From: a virus | Virus record (IMG/VR): IMGVR_UViG_3300013286_000083 | Span: 1 to 20,045 of that record | Length of the DNA: 20,045 nt | Reading direction: 5' to 3' (one strand) | Shown: positions 9,942 through 20,045 of the stretch, in pieces | Layout: every line of letters begins with the position of its first letter | How positions within the stretch are numbered: the stretch's first letter is position 1 | Program-made: the position numbers and the translations under genes | The notes under the pieces: generated by a model | Database searches by the model: none | What the model saw: the letters and a program-made list of their open reading frames with translations, nothing else | What the model was told of the DNA's origin: nothing

Positions 9942-9970
9942 AATCCCCGCCTAAAAACGGGGATTTTTTT
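9942..9970 (+). terminator. Rho-independent terminator of the + strand operon
   Basis: AATCCCCG (9942-9949) pairs perfectly with CGGGGATT (9958-9965) around an eight-base loop, and the T-run 9964-9970 follows. This is a textbook intrinsic terminator for rightward transcription. On the opposite strand the hairpin is not followed by a T-run, so it should not stop leftward transcription equally well. The T-run merges into the TAA stop (9969-9971) of the convergent giant gene, leaving no spare base between the two units. Confidence 0.9.
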
Positions 9971-12900
9971 ATTGATCGCCGTACTCAGCTATGCTGGCTT
10001 TAATTTCCGCAATACGTTTTTTGTTGTACCTAGCACCGTTCAACATCTCTTTGGTAGCACGATCTTGAGCTTTTATTGAGGCTTCGAGTATTCCATTTAC
10101 GGTGCCTTGAGTAATTCCTAATCCCCTATGCTTATTACCAATTTCAAGCAGGTCATTTTTAAAATCGTTCATACCCTCAACATCACCTTCACGCTTAGCC
10201 ATATAGTATTTTTGCTTTAGCTTACTTACTTTCTTAGATAGGAAAGTGTCAATACCTTTTTCACGGGAGTTAATTTCCAGCTGGCGTTGGTAATCTGCGG
10301 GGGCGAAGCCAAGTACCTGAGCTACTGCATTGTAGACACTTACGTCTCCTGTAATAGGATCGCCACGCAGGGTGGTAGTACCGTTTGTAAGGTACCTAAC
10401 CCCTTTAAATGCGTTACCAACTGCAGAGGGTAACAATTCTTCAAGACCTCTAAGCGTGTGCCCTTCACCTATTTTGCTATAGCCACGTTGTATCCGATCG
10501 GATACACCTATTACAGGCCCACCCACTGCTTGAAGCATTTGCTGAGTAAAGGTTGAGTCACCACTTTTAGGAACATCACGGATAATTAAGTCATTCAAAG
10601 TAATGCGACTAGCAATAGCTAGGTTAGTTGCGTAATCAATTGGGCCTTTATACAAGAAGTCACCTAAAGCCTTCTGCGTAATTGTATCAAAATCTTCGTC
10701 GTCCTCATCTGTAAACAAGCTATAGACTAAAGATACGGCACCGTAAATTGGGATACCCTGTGCACCAGCCATCAGTGCGGACATACCCATAATTCCACCT
10801 ATTTGACGCATAGCGGCTTTTCTAATCTCTGGAGTCTCACCTTTAAGAGCTTCTTTTGCTGCTTTAAGTAACATGAAGTACTGGGTAATACCGTAGCGTT
10901 TGTACATAAACAGTACTTTGCCTAACGAACTTTGCGCAATACGTGGGGCAGCGGCAGCGGCAGTTCCACCGTTAAGTAAGTCTGTTGTAGAAATAGCTTG
11001 GTAGGCTGCATAAGTTTCTGTAGCTTCTCTTGCGGTTATCTCAGGAGTTCCTTCTTCCCGTTTTGCATTTAACTCTTGGCGGATAGCTTCAATTTTATCA
11101 ACGTCTTTTTTGCTTGGCTTTTTAAGGCGCTCCATTTCAAGGTTGTATGTTGAAAGCAAAGTAACTTCACGGTTCATACGTTCCCCGTGCCGCATCATCC
11201 ACCCCGATGCAATATTAATCTTAGCCAATATTCCCGTTTTAGTATCCCCGCTAAGCATTTCGTACAACTGGGAACGATTAAGCTGTCCATTTTGTTTCCA
11301 TACTTTTACAGCGGTTGCTAACTTTTTGCCGATTTCTGATGTGGGTGTATAGTTAGCAATAGATGGCATTGCTCGCCCAGCAGCTGTGTCTTTACTACCA
11401 AGGATTGGTATATCAATCTTAGTGCCACTCCCCATAAACAACTTAGTAGCATCACCAATAGCCCTAGCAACTTGTCCTTCAGGGTAATGTGCTTTTAAAT
11501 ACGGAGCAACAATCATTGGAACGTTAGCGCCATTAACTACAACTGAAGATACGTTAAAGCCAAGGGTATAGTTAAACGCAACAGACGTTAGGATGTTACC
11601 AAGATCATTTTTAGTTGGGTTTAATATATACGACTTGCGTTTTTTATACTCTTCAAAGTATTTTATTTCTGTTTCGTTATTACGAGCAGGTATAGTTTCT
11701 TTAGCGATATTACCTAGGGCATCAACTTTTCCTGCCTCTACTCCGCTACCCGTTTGGATAGCAAGTTTTTCCATAGTGTTAATGGCGTTATCTATCTTAG
11801 GGTTGTACTTCATGTTGGCAATTTGATGCGCCATACCCCGCACTTTACTATCAAAGACTTTAATAGCATCTTCCATATAACCTGCTTTATTACCACGTCT
11901 TTGGAACGATTTTGCAAAAGCGGTTTCTGGTAAGGTAGATATAAACAAACGCATCATTTCGTCAACGGCTTTGTCGTTAATCTTGTTTGTTTCCATGATG
12001 TTTAGAACACTATTAACAAAGGAGCCTGATGGGGCATCACGATAATTAATCTTGTCTAAACCTTCGTAAACTTCGTACTTGACCCCTAGTTTTTGTAACT
12101 CGTCCATACGTTCTTTACGAGCAAACTCAGACTCAAACGCTTGATTAGCCCGTTGTTTTTGACCATTTTTATCTGTGTAGTCATATGCCAACCATTTATC
12201 GCCGCTACGACCTAAAGCAAAATAAGGTTCGATCATGCCTTTTTCGGCAAGTTTTTTCATGATGTCGGCTTTAATAATAACTTTAGTAGCTGCATCTAAG
12301 TCAGTACCATCAATACGTTCGTTAATAGCGCCTTTAATCTCGTTATACATATGCTTATAAGCATCACGCATAGTGACGTACAAGTCTTGCCAAACTTTGT
12401 CTAACTTCTTATAACGAGCATTTAAATCTTTCCACGCAGCTTCTTTAGAATTACCGTCTCTATCAAACTCACCAACATAATCAGATTGTTTTTTAGTTGG
12501 GTCAACTTCGGCAATCGTACTATCGTGCGCAATATCACTAAAGTCTTGTTTTTGCTGTGGAGCTTTTTTAGTAGCTGCTTTAATTATTGCTTCAACACCA
12601 TCAATGCCTTCAGATAGCTTATCTTGATAGCCACTACGCTGATTAATTAAAGTGTTAATCTCAGAACCTAGCCCAGGAAATACATTATCAGTTAAATCTC
12701 CCAATGTTTTTAAAGGCATTGTAGAAAAGTACCCTGCCGAAACTACATCGCCAGTACGGTCTATGGCGTTAGCTACAGTAGCTTTTTGGGTGTTATTAAT
12801 AATAGGTAAATCCCGTATCATTTTATCTATCCCACCCCATACTTCTGTGGCAGCGGCTACTTGATACTTTGGGTCTTTGTTTGTAGAGTCTAAATATTGA

Positions 12901-15830
12901 TCAAAACGAGTAAGAACTTCTGCATGATTTTTAGCTAACTGCCCAGTAGCAGCTTGATTAAATACTGTTTCAACATCGTTATAACCGTAACCTTTTAGCC
13001 AATTTCCAATCTTTCTTAAAGCAGTTAATGCTTTTTCCATGATTGATTGCGCTCTTGGGGACTGTCTTTGGAAGTCTGCAAATGCTTCAGCAACAGCCTC
13101 TTCAATCTGTTCTTCTTTAGTCAGGTTTGAATATTTAGCTTCGATACCATATTTGTTAACCCAATTACTTCTAGCCATGTTGCTTAGGATATTCCAGTCA
13201 GCAGGGGAGAAAAGCCCCATCTCACGCATAGCGTGAAGCGCTTCGTGGTTTAGTGTGTGCATAGCATCGTTAGCATTTAATGCTATCTCGATTAACCTAT
13301 TAACGTACATACCTTGCGCACTTGTACCTTCTGCGGTAGTAAGCGCCTTTTCTAATCTTAAGCCAATACCACTAAGCCCCATCTTATCTAGGGCAGCACG
13401 TAAGTCTTTAGCTAGTTTAGATACATCGCCTTGGAACGAACCTGTGCCTTGACCAACTTGTGCTTTACCTTTTACGCCGAGCTTAGCTTTTAGGTCAAAT
13501 ATTTCTTTGCTAAGAGTCTTAATCTCTGTGGGGTCAACAGTGCCTTCTAAAGCATCTTTTAAAAATTGTAAGTATGCAATCTGGTCTTCCCGTGTTTCTT
13601 CTACTTTAGGAGCTGCAGGAGTAGCTTCTTCCGCCACTTGCTCGGCAACGGGAGTCTGTATAGCAGGCTTAGTAACCGCAGTCTTAGGTTTGGTTTCAGT
13701 AATTTCACTTGATGTTTCCTCTGTTAATGTACTTGGCTGTACATTTTCTCCGTTTCCAGACTTGCTAGTAATGCTTCCAACTGGTGCCAATCCTGGTTGT
13801 TCAGATGTTCCAACTCCTTCGGTAGGTTCTGGTACCTGCTGCTCAGGAACTTGAACGCTTGCTCTATCTGCTGTAACGGCAGGTGATCCAAATTTAGTGG
13901 TTCCATAGTTTACGTCTTTCCTTATACCGCCACGTGGTCCTACCATGTTTACTTGTTGCCCTAAAGCAGCAAATGCTTGCGTAGCAAGACTCTCAATGGC
14001 TTGTTTAGTCGAATCGGCAATGTTTGGGTTTTGTCTTACTTGTACAAGTATATCTCGTACCGCTGCCTGGTCAGCAGGATCAGCTAAGTCTTTGTTAAGA
14101 AGTTTTTTAAAGAAACCAGATTGTGGTCTGAGACCAGTTCCCTGTAAAGAAGGAGCATCTAGTTTAGTTTTAAACTCGGCAGGAGCTTCTGGTGGGCCTG
14201 CTAGCGCCGATTCAACGTTGCCTGGTAATCCCTGCGCTCGTGCTTGTGCCTGTGCTAAACCAAGTTCTTTTTCAAACATGTCAGGCTGATAGCCAACAAC
14301 TTTTTGTGGTGTGAGACGTTCGGCTTCCGCCTGCTCTGGGGTTCTAGCAACATTTTGCTGGTCTACTGTAATCGGCGTTGTATCAATAGATTGCGTAGGG
14401 TATGCTTTGCCAGGGGTATAACCAAGCAAAGGACCAAGCAAGTCCAGAAGCATTTGTTTCTCATAAGACTGAGAAGGTAACGAGTCTTCAATACGTTTGA
14501 GCTTTTCTGCAATAGCAGCTTGTTCTGTAGGATTTTTAGTAGCTTTAAATTGCTCAACCAAGGTACCAATCATTGCACCTACTGGATCAGCGGCGGCTTC
14601 TCTTTCAGCTACAGTCGTAGATGGGATGCCAGGACCTTGGGGTACTTCTTGCCCAAACAAATCACCAGTAGCTTGTTGTTGACGTGCAAGTTCTTGTTGG
14701 TCTGCTTGTTCTTTTTCTTGACGTTGCTTCTCAGCTGCTTGCTGTTCTAATAGTTGGCGCTGTGCCATTTCTTGTGCGGCAGCTTGTTTTATACGGCTAG
14801 CTTCCATGGCTGCGCCAGGAGTACCAAATGTGCCACCACCTACTGCGCCTTTTAAACCAGCGAACAAGATGCTATCAATGTTCTTCTGTGAAAAGAATGG
14901 GTCTTTGCCACCAGCAACTTGTCCTGCAAGGATGTCAATAGCTTGTTGTGCCGATTCAGTTAAACCTTCGCCAGCAGTAGTTTTAGCAATCTCGCCTAAA
15001 AAGGCTTTCTTAAAGTTAACTGGAACAACAGTAGATTTCTCTAGCATCGCTGCGGCAACACGGTCCTTACCAGCTGGGCCAAGTTGTTTTAAGATCTTAC
15101 TAGGTAAGTATGTATCCAATGCTCCCTTCAGGGAACCGAAAGTAATCGCTAGTCCAGGGGCTAAATCGCCTGTCTCTTCGTAAATACTATTTAAGGTCTC
15201 AGGAATACTCTGAGCCATGGATGATCCGAATAGACCAACTGTACCACCAATATCGGCGCCTTTAGCTGCGGCTTGCCCAAGAACTCGTTGTTCTAATTTA
15301 GTAGCAGCTTCTTCAGCTAATTGTCTTTTAGCTACGTGCGCAGGTAGTCCTTCTTTTAATGCAGCAGCTGCACCACGTTTAGCAATGGCCTTACCTGCAA
15401 CTGTACCGACTCCAGTACCTAACAAGAACGATGCAATATCAGGCGCTAGTTCACCAGCAGTTTCGGCAATAAACCCACCAAAGTCACCGATGCCTTGTAT
15501 GTCTTTAATGCTTTTGTATGCTGTAGGATTAACTTGCTCCTCGGCAGCCATACGGTCTCGGTACTCTTGTAGTTGCTGCTTGGCGTAATCTTTTTGCCCA
15601 ATCAGCGAAGCACCCAATGCTGGCAGTAAATCAAACACCGTACCTTTAAAACCTTCTAGGCCACGAGATGCGCCGCCTTTAACTAGTTGCCCAAGACCTA
15701 GTTCTCTAGGATCTACTAAAGGTTTGTTTGCTTCTGTTTGAATAGCCCGTGCTTTAGCTAAAATATCAGCGTCGGATAATGAATCAGCAAACTCTACAGG
15801 ACCTACGCCTGGAATATTAACCCGTGCCAT
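9969..15830 (-). CDS. Giant internal virion / polyvalent protein with HEALH metallopeptidase motif
   Basis: The 1953-residue product is probably packed in the capsid and ejected into the host, as T7 gp16 (about 1300 aa) is. The N-terminus has a short IPGVGPVEFADSLSDADI element common at the start of phage virion proteins, then a Gly/Ala-rich hydrophobic stretch (117-150). Residues 343-388 are a Gln-rich coiled coil and 643-757 a Pro/Thr/Glu-rich linker. HEALH (862-866), followed by EEQIEEAVAEAF with E911/E915, fits a gluzincin zinc peptidase. The C-terminal part has FMYKRYG (1641-1647), a basic helix, a hydrophobic segment (1677-1706), then an Asp-rich turn; this resembles the LPD38/PLxRFG-type terminal domain of phage polyvalent proteins. 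ATG 15830 follows AAGGA and lies nine bases after the previous gene. Virion role and peptidase activity are inferred; the long frame is certain. Confidence 0.85.
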   Translation of the reverse strand: MARVNIPGVGPVEFADSLSDADILAKARAIQTEANKPLVDPRELGLGQLVKGGASRGLEGFKGTVFDLLPALGASLIGQKDYAKQQLQEYRDRMAAEEQVNPTAYKSIKDIQGIGDFGGFIAETAGELAPDIASFLLGTGVGTVAGKAIAKRGAAAALKEGLPAHVAKRQLAEEAATKLEQRVLGQAAAKGADIGGTVGLFGSSMAQSIPETLNSIYEETGDLAPGLAITFGSLKGALDTYLPSKILKQLGPAGKDRVAAAMLEKSTVVPVNFKKAFLGEIAKTTAGEGLTESAQQAIDILAGQVAGGKDPFFSQKNIDSILFAGLKGAVGGGTFGTPGAAMEASRIKQAAAQEMAQRQLLEQQAAEKQRQEKEQADQQELARQQQATGDLFGQEVPQGPGIPSTTVAEREAAADPVGAMIGTLVEQFKATKNPTEQAAIAEKLKRIEDSLPSQSYEKQMLLDLLGPLLGYTPGKAYPTQSIDTTPITVDQQNVARTPEQAEAERLTPQKVVGYQPDMFEKELGLAQAQARAQGLPGNVESALAGPPEAPAEFKTKLDAPSLQGTGLRPQSGFFKKLLNKDLADPADQAAVRDILVQVRQNPNIADSTKQAIESLATQAFAALGQQVNMVGPRGGIRKDVNYGTTKFGSPAVTADRASVQVPEQQVPEPTEGVGTSEQPGLAPVGSITSKSGNGENVQPSTLTEETSSEITETKPKTAVTKPAIQTPVAEQVAEEATPAAPKVEETREDQIAYLQFLKDALEGTVDPTEIKTLSKEIFDLKAKLGVKGKAQVGQGTGSFQGDVSKLAKDLRAALDKMGLSGIGLRLEKALTTAEGTSAQGMYVNRLIEIALNANDAMHTLNHEALHAMREMGLFSPADWNILSNMARSNWVNKYGIEAKYSNLTKEEQIEEAVAEAFADFQRQSPRAQSIMEKALTALRKIGNWLKGYGYNDVETVFNQAATGQLAKNHAEVLTRFDQYLDSTNKDPKYQVAAATEVWGGIDKMIRDLPIINNTQKATVANAIDRTGDVVSAGYFSTMPLKTLGDLTDNVFPGLGSEINTLINQRSGYQDKLSEGIDGVEAIIKAATKKAPQQKQDFSDIAHDSTIAEVDPTKKQSDYVGEFDRDGNSKEAAWKDLNARYKKLDKVWQDLYVTMRDAYKHMYNEIKGAINERIDGTDLDAATKVIIKADIMKKLAEKGMIEPYFALGRSGDKWLAYDYTDKNGQKQRANQAFESEFARKERMDELQKLGVKYEVYEGLDKINYRDAPSGSFVNSVLNIMETNKINDKAVDEMMRLFISTLPETAFAKSFQRRGNKAGYMEDAIKVFDSKVRGMAHQIANMKYNPKIDNAINTMEKLAIQTGSGVEAGKVDALGNIAKETIPARNNETEIKYFEEYKKRKSYILNPTKNDLGNILTSVAFNYTLGFNVSSVVVNGANVPMIVAPYLKAHYPEGQVARAIGDATKLFMGSGTKIDIPILGSKDTAAGRAMPSIANYTPTSEIGKKLATAVKVWKQNGQLNRSQLYEMLSGDTKTGILAKINIASGWMMRHGERMNREVTLLSTYNLEMERLKKPSKKDVDKIEAIRQELNAKREEGTPEITAREATETYAAYQAISTTDLLNGGTAAAAAPRIAQSSLGKVLFMYKRYGITQYFMLLKAAKEALKGETPEIRKAAMRQIGGIMGMSALMAGAQGIPIYGAVSLVYSLFTDEDDEDFDTITQKALGDFLYKGPIDYATNLAIASRITLNDLIIRDVPKSGDSTFTQQMLQAVGGPVIGVSDRIQRGYSKIGEGHTLRGLEELLPSAVGNAFKGVRYLTNGTTTLRGDPITGDVSVYNAVAQVLGFAPADYQRQLEINSREKGIDTFLSKKVSKLKQKYYMAKREGDVEGMNDFKNDLLEIGNKHRGLGITQGTVNGILEASIKAQDRATKEMLNGARYNKKRIAEIKASIAEYGDQ

Positions 15831-15839
15831 ATTTTTTCC

Positions 15840-18332
15840 TTATTCTACTTCTGGGCGTGCTTTTACATTTCTAGATTGCATTGTATTTAAGTACTGATTC
15901 ATGTGGGCATCCGCATATCTGTTGTATTCATTCATTAAATTTTGATACGACTGAGTATTAGGCTTATATCCCTGCCTAAATCCTTCTTGTACTTTAGGCG
16001 GTAATGAAGAAAATACTGGAGATGTTAGTGGGTTAGCTTTATATTCTTCATACCGTTGAGCTACTTTATCATAAGTAGCGGGGGGTATATTAGCTATTCC
16101 TGTAGGACCTTTACCTCTACCTGAACGGTAGTATTCAGCCTGAGCCGCAAACAACGGTGCGTGTGCTTTGTAGTATTCCTCAGTGATACCCATCTTCTTA
16201 AGTTCTTGCTTGAGTTCAGCACCTTTGAGGTTAAGTGCAGCAATCTGACCAAGTTGTTTAGCTTCGTCGCTACGGATGCCACGCATTTCTTCTTGGTAGC
16301 CTTGTAGTGCAGGGATAGCGCCTTTAAAGTTAGCCGCAGCATATTGTGATGTGCCACCCATAATGCCAAGACCAGCCTGTAACATAGCCATTAACTTAGC
16401 TTCTTTACGTGCATCAGCATTGTCTTTGGAAAGATTTTTAATATCGCCAATAGACTGCTTGATAATTTCGTCAATGCCACCTGTATCAGTCTTTGTTTCT
16501 GGAGCGCCAGTAGGAATGTTTAAATTGCTAGCAGGTTTAGTGCCTAAGTTTTTGTTATCACGAATAACTGTTAAGTTGTCAGCAGGTGCAGCCTGTGTAG
16601 GCGCAGCGCCTGGGTCTTGTGCGGATGGGTTAAACGTAGCACCTGGAGTTACTTTACCTGTATTAATCTGTTCTCTTAAACCCCTAAAGAAAGGACCTGC
16701 TTTAGCCCCTATGTAAGAAGGTAAGTCACTAATTTGCTCTGGGAACCCCATACTTACGTCATAAGGCATCGGATTGCCTTCGTCATCTTTTCTTGGGGTA
16801 TTGCCGCCTTTATAAAAGTGTTCAACTTCACCACCATCATCAAACGCAATGATGCCACCACCAGCATATTCAGTAGGCAGGTTACTTTGAGCCATCTCAA
16901 TACCTTGTTGACGTTGTTGGTCAAGTGCGGCACGTTCGGCAAGAATCTGATCTTTGATTGTAGGAGGAGTACCCTGTGCCATAGCAGCGGCAATTTGACG
17001 TTCTTTATCGTCCTTGTTCTTTTGCTGTATTGCAGCAAGACCCACTAAATCATCTACAAGACCATCTTTAGTACTTCTATCTATAGTTTGTTTAGAGTAA
17101 GCATCGGGGTTCATTAGAACCTTACGAGAGATAGCTTGGCTGATACCACCACTTACAAAGTTTTTAGTATCGTCTTCCCCAATAGAACCGCCCTCTGCAT
17201 AAGACTTAACTTCACCGCCAGTAGCGCCCCTAGCTAAACCATAAGCTGCAGCGCCAGTTAAGCCGAGACCAGAAATTTGCGAGATAGCGGAAGGAGCAGC
17301 TTGATAAGATTGTGTAGTAGCCGATTGCAAAGGCAAACCACGTAGCAAGCCAGACATAGCAGACAATTGCTGCATTGGGTACTGTTGCTGCATAGCGTAG
17401 TTCTGGATAGCTTGATTGACCTTGTTCTGCTCTTGGGTTTGCATTTGCGCACCCATTTGGTTCTGTAAACCAATAATGCCTTGTTGCCCTTGCAACTGTC
17501 GCCCGCCAATATCAGCCAAAGCGGTACCAGCCTGAGTTAATTGGCCTGTACCTTGAAGGGCAGTGCCTAAACCTTGTAAGCCTAAGTTAGCGCCATACTG
17601 CTGGGCTTGTTGTGCAGCTTGGAAAGCATTTTGATAGCCAGAACCAATCGCTTGGTTCATAGCAGTATTCTTATTACGTTCATTTTCGGCTTGTTGCAAC
17701 GCAGCACGATTACCACCAAAAGCGCCTTGACCTACTGACTGCCCACGCATTTGATTGCCAGTAATATCATATTGACGACCAATTTCTTGTAACTGAGGTT
17801 GTAATGCAGACTGGATATAAGGCGACATAAACGCTTGGGTAGCGTATGGGTTTGTTGCCATCATGTTGTACTGATTACCAACGTTAGCGGCACGATCAGC
17901 TACGTTAGCTGCGCCCATACCACCTAAAGCTGCATAGCCTGTACCTGTGTTGTATTGCCCAGGAAGACCTAAATTACTAGCGTTGTAAAAAGATTGTTGC
18001 TGTAATGGGCTAAACGGTGCTACTGCCGCAGAGGCTTGTTCTTGAGCTGTGTTAGTAATGTTACCGTTGGCATCAACAGTTGCGCCATAAGGCGTATAAC
18101 CTTTAAACCCAGTTACTGTTTTGTTGCCTTCAGCATCAGGTGCGCCATAGTTATATATTTGTTGTTGGGCAGTGCCAAGCATTGTCTCTACATATGGACG
18201 AGCGTATTCTGGAATGTTAGAGTTTTGTACATTTGTCTGAGTTGGTTGCCCACCCCCACCACCACCACCTGTAAAAGGAGTGCGCTTTAAGTCCCAAGTC
18301 CAACCGCTGTGTTTAGATTTTAAAAAGCTCAT
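15840..18332 (-). CDS. Gln/Gly-rich virion protein (probable internal or tail component)
   Basis: This 830-residue protein starts with a basic patch and a seven-glycine run (23-29). It then has a long Gln/Ala/Asn-rich helical region (about 90-345) holding GQGAFGGNRAALQQAENERN near residues 200-220, a pattern I associate with structural proteins of environmental podophages. Short glycine motifs follow: GGEVKSYAEGGSIG (372-385), VSGGISQAI and YAGGGIIAFDDGGEV (489-503). The last third is charged and helical. No enzyme motif or signal peptide is visible. Its ATG overlaps the stop of the GNAT gene (ATGA), and nine bases separate it from the giant gene. In position it corresponds to T7 gp14/gp15, between a gp13-like protein and a gp16-like giant, but no sequence similarity to those is apparent. 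Confidence 0.75.
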   Translation of the reverse strand: MSFLKSKHSGWTWDLKRTPFTGGGGGGGQPTQTNVQNSNIPEYARPYVETMLGTAQQQIYNYGAPDAEGNKTVTGFKGYTPYGATVDANGNITNTAQEQASAAVAPFSPLQQQSFYNASNLGLPGQYNTGTGYAALGGMGAANVADRAANVGNQYNMMATNPYATQAFMSPYIQSALQPQLQEIGRQYDITGNQMRGQSVGQGAFGGNRAALQQAENERNKNTAMNQAIGSGYQNAFQAAQQAQQYGANLGLQGLGTALQGTGQLTQAGTALADIGGRQLQGQQGIIGLQNQMGAQMQTQEQNKVNQAIQNYAMQQQYPMQQLSAMSGLLRGLPLQSATTQSYQAAPSAISQISGLGLTGAAAYGLARGATGGEVKSYAEGGSIGEDDTKNFVSGGISQAISRKVLMNPDAYSKQTIDRSTKDGLVDDLVGLAAIQQKNKDDKERQIAAAMAQGTPPTIKDQILAERAALDQQRQQGIEMAQSNLPTEYAGGGIIAFDDGGEVEHFYKGGNTPRKDDEGNPMPYDVSMGFPEQISDLPSYIGAKAGPFFRGLREQINTGKVTPGATFNPSAQDPGAAPTQAAPADNLTVIRDNKNLGTKPASNLNIPTGAPETKTDTGGIDEIIKQSIGDIKNLSKDNADARKEAKLMAMLQAGLGIMGGTSQYAAANFKGAIPALQGYQEEMRGIRSDEAKQLGQIAALNLKGAELKQELKKMGITEEYYKAHAPLFAAQAEYYRSGRGKGPTGIANIPPATYDKVAQRYEEYKANPLTSPVFSSLPPKVQEGFRQGYKPNTQSYQNLMNEYNRYADAHMNQYLNTMQSRNVKARPEVE

Positions 18333-18742
18333 AGCTTAGTTTCCATAATAATGTGGCGCTCTACCATACCAACTTGTTTATACAGTCTAGCTGCAGATTC
18401 TCTAGCAGCGCATTGAACTCTTGTAGCCCCGTTCGCCTTTATAAAGCTACAAACCTGCCCATATACATCTTCATTCACAATCGCTTTACCAGCCATTGCA
18501 GTAATAAATCCAACACGGTAGTTTGGCATATTATAAAAACTTACTGATGCTGCACCGTGAATAGTTTTTTCTTCGTCTATTGCTACTAATAATACCCATG
18601 AACCGTTAGCCAGTAAACCTTTAATCTGATCTACTGTATAGTCCCCAGGATCGTGTTTATTGGCTTTTACAAACAAATCTTCTACTAAAGGCCATGTCTG
18701 ATGGACATATTGCACGCCTACTGAGTGAACCGTTATAGTCAT
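18329..18742 (-). CDS. GNAT-fold protein, T7 gp13-like (DUF2833 type)
   Basis: This 137-residue protein has the strand-helix order of a GNAT acyltransferase. It opens with a helix (PLVEDLFVKANKHDPGDYT), then a substrate-side region (LLANGSWVLLVAIDEE), a central strand pair (IHGAASVSFY, VGFITAMAGKAIV) and a final strand-helix (ATRVQCAARESAARLYKQVGM). The last piece resembles the N-terminal end of GNAT motif B (N..A..lYek.GF). The usual acetyl-CoA pyrophosphate loop (Q/RxxGxG/A) is not evident, so enzymatic activity is doubtful. T7 gp13, about 138 residues, belongs to a family placed in the acetyltransferase clan and is needed for virion assembly or infectivity. The size and the position before larger internal virion proteins match. 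Its ATG shares one base with the preceding TAA and its TGA overlaps the next ATG, so translation is coupled. Confidence 0.75.
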   Translation of the reverse strand: MTITVHSVGVQYVHQTWPLVEDLFVKANKHDPGDYTVDQIKGLLANGSWVLLVAIDEEKTIHGAASVSFYNMPNYRVGFITAMAGKAIVNEDVYGQVCSFIKANGATRVQCAARESAARLYKQVGMVERHIIMETKL

Positions 18743-20045
18743 TAAGCAACCATGTATTTAGCTGGTTTAATCTGTTTACCTTGTTTTGAATTACCCGTGC
18801 GGGCTTTCCGTACTCGGTTCATCATGGCGTAAAGTTGCTTAGCCCCTGCATCAGTAGAGCCATTACCAAGGTGAGAAACAACATCGGCAGGTATTACAAA
18901 CTCGCCATCAGCCAAACGGGCGGGTTGCTTACCAGCAATCGTAGCTGGAATATTGTCAGACATACCATCGCCAGGACCTTTCAACATACGACCACCATCA
19001 GAGTAACCACCTAAATTAGCCATACCACCACCAGCTAAATTTTGTGCAGCCATCTGCCCATAAACATCTTGTAAGGCAGGTTTAGTCATACCTTGCATAC
19101 CAATAGCGTCCATTTGTTCTTTTGTCAACATGCGTTTTTTACCTGCTTGAGCTAAAGCCGCAATACCTTGATCTGCCATTGCTTGTGCCCCAGCGCCTGT
19201 ACCAGCACCACTAGGTAAACCCATAGCCATACCACCCATATCAAAACGAGCAACACCACCAGAAGCCATATTAGCTGTAGCTACGCCAGTATATGGATTG
19301 GTTTTAGTATCGTAATCGGATTGAATTACTTCCGCCGAAGCAGGCATCTGCGTAGGAGTAGCAAAATTGGTGTGTTCTTGCTGGCTCTGTGGGTACATAT
19401 TGCTTGTACCGCCCATAATATTTTGGCTCATTTGCTCAACTGGGCCTGGGTTGGCTATACCCCCTTGGGCTAACTTCATAATGCCACCTTCAGCCGCATA
19501 AGTAGGGCGATAAACGCTTTCAGGTGCGTAAGTTGGGGTAGAAGCTGTAAAACTATTTGGGTCGTATTTGAGTTTTTTTAAATTACCACCATTGTATTTA
19601 TCAGTAGGTTGCCCAAATTTAGCTCTTTCGGCTTGCATAGCACCAGATAACCCAGCAGTACCTGCAGTCATACCTAATTGTGTATTAGATAAATAGCCTT
19701 GCTCCCCTGGTCTATATCCAAATATGTTTTTTACGTTTTGAGCATTGTTTTGGCTATTGTCAACCGATGGCGTTGGTGGCCTATTAAATATAGATTGATT
19801 GCCTGATTCGGCTAAAGATTGAGTTGTAGGAGAAAGAGCCTCAGCAACACCACCAGCAGGAGCAGCTGCAACACCACTAGAAATGGGGGCAGTACTTACC
19901 GCAGGGGCAGCGCCAGCAGTTAAACCAAACCCACTACCTGTACCAGCACCGCTAATACCACCACCTAATTGAGTGGCTGCATTAACACTTTGTCCCGCAC
20001 CGCTAAAAATACTAGACGTAGTTGCAGGAGTAAAACTAGAAGTAA
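18742..20045 (-). CDS. Gly/Ala-rich virion protein, 5' end outside window (partial)
   Basis: The frame is open from the window edge to the TAA at 18742-18744, at least 433 codons. The first internal ATG is at 19671, but 124 further codons without a stop lie upstream, in the same Ala/Gly/Ser/Thr-rich style, so the gene starts beyond 20045. Short glycine motifs recur: AEGGIMKLAQGG, ASGGVARFDMGG and LAGGGMANLGGYSDGG. The C-terminus has GPGDGMSDNIPATIAGKQ, then LADGEFVIPADVVSHLGNGS and a basic tail. The SDxIPA...GEFVIPA element is widespread in phage tape-measure and other tail or virion proteins. No enzyme motif is seen. It lies first in the visible leftward cluster and overlaps the GNAT gene by one base (TAATG). 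Structural role is inferred from composition, motif and neighbours. Confidence 0.75.
   Translation of the reverse strand, partial: TSSFTPATTSSIFSGAGQSVNAATQLGGGISGAGTGSGFGLTAGAAPAVSTAPISSGVAAAPAGGVAEALSPTTQSLAESGNQSIFNRPPTPSVDNSQNNAQNVKNIFGYRPGEQGYLSNTQLGMTAGTAGLSGAMQAERAKFGQPTDKYNGGNLKKLKYDPNSFTASTPTYAPESVYRPTYAAEGGIMKLAQGGIANPGPVEQMSQNIMGGTSNMYPQSQQEHTNFATPTQMPASAEVIQSDYDTKTNPYTGVATANMASGGVARFDMGGMAMGLPSGAGTGAGAQAMADQGIAALAQAGKKRMLTKEQMDAIGMQGMTKPALQDVYGQMAAQNLAGGGMANLGGYSDGGRMLKGPGDGMSDNIPATIAGKQPARLADGEFVIPADVVSHLGNGSTDAGAKQLYAMMNRVRKARTGNSKQGKQIKPAKYMVA

Follow-up and report, generated by a model that had tools for sequence, protein, structure and literature searches.

What does a zinc-peptidase motif do inside a viral protein of 1953 residues, and would the domain that carries it cut anything? 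The window that we analysed is an entire IMG/VR record of 20,045 bases, and the protein is encoded by a giant open reading frame at 9969-15830 on the minus strand (it starts with the ATG at 15830 and its stop codon ends at 9969), the strand on which all window features located below also lie. A first-pass annotation had reported this frame without its strand, assigned the protein to the ejected polyvalent proteins, recognised in it a gluzincin-type metallopeptidase, and suggested that the combination of domains may be undescribed. The frame is confirmed, and the class and the type of peptidase are supported. The novelty is not, because polyvalent proteins were described in 2017 as carrying zincin metallopeptidases more often than any other domain, and roles in self-processing, against virion targets and against host targets were proposed at the same time (Iyer et al., 2017, PMC5512222). 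Since then class, fold and all three possible functions have been on record; what is new here is this member, the assignment of its residues and a quantified, near-fixed pairing of the zincin with a C-terminal module.

The giant combines several domains, an LPD domain among them. LPD39 (PF18858; residues 1020-1178, 12297-12773, E 3.3e-16) is the sole Pfam match in the whole protein, and Pfam recognises no peptidase family in it. It overlaps the start of a conserved, mostly helical C-terminal module (residues 1091-1940, 10011-12560; alignment A8) that has 444 relatives among viral contigs, and in PHROGs the C-terminal 750 residues resemble DarB-like giants. The AF2 model of the module reaches a pLDDT of only 68, and this low-confidence model has no fold match in the PDB. 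The C-terminal part had been described as LPD38/PLxRFG-like. The LPD/PLxRFG type is borne out but the domain is LPD39: LPD38 (PF18857), which is detected in 10 of 19 relatives, is not found in this giant by Pfam at E up to 1, and we reject it as the C-terminal domain here. Nor does the PLxRFG motif lie in residues 1600-1953, the region that had been suggested; its degenerate form, PYFALGRSG(D), is found earlier, at residues ~1202-1211 (12201-12227), aligned with the consensus PYFPLxRFG of the relatives.

At the other end, a Gly-rich N-terminal region (residues 1-345, 14796-15830) with a conserved GEGLTESAQQ motif (alignment A7) matches the N-terminal parts of phrog_6958 (E 1e-10) and phrog_2206 (E 8e-7), families of a virion structural protein and a virion RNA polymerase that are each matched by 5 of 15 relatives; the N-terminal 786 residues gave no match when compared with phage records. 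Pfam and PHROGs find no T7-type RNA polymerase domain, so the giant is not a member of the N4-like virion RNA polymerases. No RNA families or tRNAs were found. The stretch rich in Pro, Thr and Glu that had been noted before the peptidase motif is evident from the translation, as a variable, poorly conserved linker (residues ~640-795, 13446-13913). Linker sequence also holds a QPDMF motif (residue 515, 14274-14288), with QADLF and QPDLF in close relatives; it resembles a beta-clamp-binding motif, a reading that we reject since the likeness is confined to close relatives and shows no excess over chance across the family.

The giant lies next to virion genes. It comes after ejection-like, GNAT-like and structural-like genes that run in its direction, and replication genes on the opposite strand converge with it. 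Immediately upstream, in the same direction, lies an 830-residue protein (15840-18332) that weakly resembles a family of DNA ejection proteins (phrog_4287, E 3e-8) and has relatives in three of the other loci (L004, L138 and L107). It is preceded by a 137-residue protein (18329-18742) that is GNAT-like by motif only: Pfam gives no match, the two nearest relatives have it at 88-91% identity, and it occupies the position of annotated acetyltransferases beside other giants. Next upstream is a structural-like protein (18742-20043) with a conserved C-terminal block; its C-terminal ~85 residues are 73-84% identical where its other parts diverge among relatives. The same succession of acetyltransferase, structural protein(s) and giant recurs in Lastavirus, Skulduggeryvirus, Parlovirus, Roslyckyvirus and Lessievirus, and in Lessievirus JC1 the corresponding giant is prominent in CsCl-purified virions by mass spectrometry, with 51 unique peptides (PMC9144972). 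The zincin region of JC1 is 40-46% identical to those of the ZX1, Parlo and Skulduggery giants, whose C-termini align with our giant; because the JC1 C-terminus has no convincing alignment with the module of this family, these proteomic results carry over to our giant via the zincin region alone. Gene order, the N-terminal match to virion families and JC1 proteomics are indirect signs that the giant may be carried in the virion.

The peptidase motif itself is HEALH, at residues 862-866 (13233-13247), as first reported, and it is the only HExxH in the protein. A profile built on four zincin domains retrieved 80 viral loci, and in the alignment of 57 non-redundant, diverse domains only H862, E863, H866, E911 and A916 are invariant. 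Two glutamates, E911 and E915, had been named downstream of HEALH, and both are there, 45 and 49 positions past H866. The third zinc ligand is likely E911 (13098-13100, beside E910) rather than E915, because E911 never varies while E915 (Glu in 53 domains) is replaced by Asp in two, His in one and Arg in one, and we reject E915 for this role; H862 and H866 would be the other two ligands and E863 the general base. This test of conservation is partly circular because the search patterns sat on the HExxH and Glu motifs themselves. Of the 82 domains so collected, however, 74 match the Glu pattern only, yet all of these carry HExxH, and five match the HExxH pattern only, yet all retain E911, the other three being seeds that match both. 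Y900 (13131-13133; Tyr in 54 of 57) is the nearest conserved tyrosine and a candidate catalytic residue.

Structure prediction, which had been recommended for this region, gives a minimal zincin core. The AF2 model of residues 787-986 (pLDDT 87.8, pTM 0.80) consists of a helix, three strands, the HExxH helix and a helix that carries E911 (119-136 of the model), in agreement with the core described for polyvalent-protein metallopeptidases (PMC5512222); together with the profile of 57 relatives and Foldseek it supports a zincin domain at residues 797-975 (12906-13442). The best PDB match is PPEP-2, at a probability of 0.96 but with an E value of 0.011 and a TM-score of 0.38, which is weak; no PDB match falls below an E of 0.001, and MATCAP, M61 and ulilysin match less well. 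The viral structure library BFVD gives 17 matches at E ≤ 0.001, all of them large phage proteins, giants of which several are named structural protein or large polyvalent protein. The PPEPs are M34-like, which puts the nearest solved relative in the same neighbourhood as the M34 lethal factor endopeptidase that Iyer et al. matched to the N4 domain (PMC5512222). PPEP-3 binds zinc through His153, His157 and Glu197, with Glu196 adjacent and the catalytic Tyr190 seven residues before Glu197 (PMC12828418); PPEP-2 and PPEP-3 have a tandem Glu whose second member binds zinc, which resembles E910/E911. The likeness has bounds. The PPEPs are secreted bacterial enzymes with no sequence match to the zincin of the giant, which gives no sign of Pro-Pro specificity, and 44 residues separate the second His from the Glu here, against 39 in PPEP-3. 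That Y900 is the counterpart of Tyr190 is only suggestive, because it stands 11 residues before E911 and not seven.

Since the first relatives were found by patterns on the motifs, we also gathered giants through the C-terminal module alone, with the zincin unused. The best 80 of the 444 relatives were fetched, a limit which means that this control samples the nearer relatives; two fragments were left out, and 73 of the 78 loci examined were testable, five having too little upstream sequence. Among these best relatives one HExxH lies 223-308 residues upstream of the module in all 73 testable loci and in all 45 non-redundant ones, whereas shuffles place one there by chance in ~0.8% of proteins. 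HExxH is therefore conserved across homologues in both sets (57/57 and 45/45), the check on which the annotation had been made to depend. An E-x-x-x-E/D motif follows in 45 of 45 (44 by the first pattern; L127 counts only if Met is allowed), after 39 intervening residues, the spacing of PPEP-3, in 35, and a Tyr stands exactly seven before the Glu in 37. In the 22 full-length proteins of this set the equivalents of H862, E863, H866 and E911 are invariant; among their domains only LPD39, present in 21, recurs in more than three of these proteins, and no further effector enzyme can be recognised. The zincin and the C-terminal module are a constant pair in this lineage. Outside it the pairing is not universal: nine of 11 named-phage giants with the module have HExxH or HExxxH at 1065-1235 residues from the C-terminus (seven HExxH; HELITH in douglas 12A4 and HELIGH in Vibrio 1F273 are longer-spaced), but those of Atu_ph08 and PBC5 have no HExxH before the module. 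These two carry a conserved HNHP...S..D in the zincin slot (L096 ~13840-14560 and L101 ~13300-14030); a JAB/RadC-like domain, which the motif recalls, found no support in Pfam or PDB profile searches and is set aside. In PBC5 the annotation splits the DarB-like giant into two genes (L101 1328-7870 and 9502-17076).

Known systems give this layout a frame. Like the metallopeptidases of polyvalent proteins (PMC5512222), the domain has a three-stranded sheet, an N-terminal helix, the HExxH helix and the Glu helix, and sits inside a giant phage protein with LPD domains; one common phage clade among the 12 described there has an Asp three residues after HExxH, which our giant lacks. The DarB-like/PLxRFG giants of Lastavirus, Skulduggeryvirus, Parlovirus and Pavtokvirus share a C-terminal module 23-26% identical over ~850 residues, an HExxH nearly equidistant from the C-terminus and, in several, the gene order. 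They are 3700-5000 residues long, against 1953 here, and some of them (Pavtok, Vibrio 1F273, Atu_ph08) have an annotated or detected methylase, helicase or transglycosylase, domains of which none is recognised here. N4 gp50 (NTD, RNAP, C1 with HExxH, C2) has the same order of N-terminal ejection region, cargo, HExxH domain and helical C-terminus of ~1100 residues; its HExxH lies 1273 residues from the protein end, it is likewise a late gene at the convergent end of a virion operon, and the N-termini of several relatives match the virion RNA polymerase PHROG. It has a polymerase, which our giant does not. Homology in sequence with gp50 we do not claim: profile comparisons are weak for the N-terminus, the zincin and the C-terminus, and the C-terminus has no fold match.

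We therefore picture, from sequence comparison, a predicted fold and analogy, a virion-borne, ejected polyvalent protein in which an ejection region at the N-terminus is followed by a variable linker, an M34/PPEP-like zincin and a C-terminal module of ~1000 residues that comprises LPD39 and the PLxRFG region. Because the zincin keeps a near-fixed position before the C-terminal part, it probably belongs to the working ejection machinery and is no dispensable addition. Catalytic activity of the zincin is probable, and its main job would most likely be to cut the giant itself or partner virion and ejection proteins, either while the head matures or once entry has taken place, in coordination with the adjoining module. 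We rank such regulated processing first, at roughly an even chance (about 0.5). Reported cases point both ways: the zincin-bearing DdrB of P1 is reported to be processed before packaging (PMC5512222), which speaks for processing, and full-length recombinant N4 vRNAP, with its HExxH domain at the corresponding place, showed no degradation (PMC12633501), which speaks against it. N4 vRNAP is also packaged unprocessed (PMC5512222), so spontaneous autolysis is not general. Release of effectors explains less, because in most of the near relatives no further enzyme can be recognised. A bolder and rather less likely reading takes up that, in this lineage of giants of ~2000 residues, no catalytic domain is recognised besides the zincin and LPD39 (the latter merely a suspected enzyme) and that the zincin is tied permanently to the module. 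Such giants would be ejection proteins that bear a protease and deliver proteolysis itself, whether directed at the ejection apparatus or at a host target, and the zincin would not serve to free other effectors.

Regulated processing has to be weighed against a zincin that acts as an injected effector and cuts a host protein, such as a restriction, defence or transcription factor, after entry. Iyer et al. proposed this role (PMC5512222), the polymorphic-toxin metallopeptidase families Tox-MPTase2, Tox-MPTase4 and Peptidase_M91 give weak matches, and the 22 full-length relatives hold little else to release; but a host-directed effector should be present in some relatives and absent from others, whereas the zincin is constantly paired with the C-terminal module, which hints at a core function within the particle, and members from many giant types keep the same active site. 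We regard it as a credible but rather doubtful alternative. Improbable, to our mind, is a mainly structural role in assembly, where the fold would be integral to the C-terminal encapsidation and ejection region, like C1-C2 of N4 vRNAP, and catalysis minor or absent. The near-fixed spacing to the module would fit it, as would N4, whose zincin-containing region is needed for encapsidation (PMC5512222) and whose purified protein is stable (PMC12633501), but E863, which would bind no zinc, is invariant in 57 of 57 and 45 of 45 domains, and this argues for catalysis, since a purely structural zinc site could do without it. A chance HExxH in a repetitive giant, for which only the shortness of the motif speaks, is excluded by conservation, given the shuffle rate, the invariant columns and the confident predicted fold.

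We found in the literature no activity data for the zincin of an injected phage giant, and this compact one of some 2000 residues would be a good place to learn whether such zincins cut, and what, because its pairing is near-fixed, its putative general base invariant and no other cargo obvious. The domain of ~180 residues could also be annotated as a family; no curated Pfam or NCBIfam model for it appears among the 25 most frequent families of each list. One relative (L002:1020-1300) carries, beyond the conserved motif, another HExxH: its open frame reads HELGH at residue 340 and EEIIAEF further downstream.
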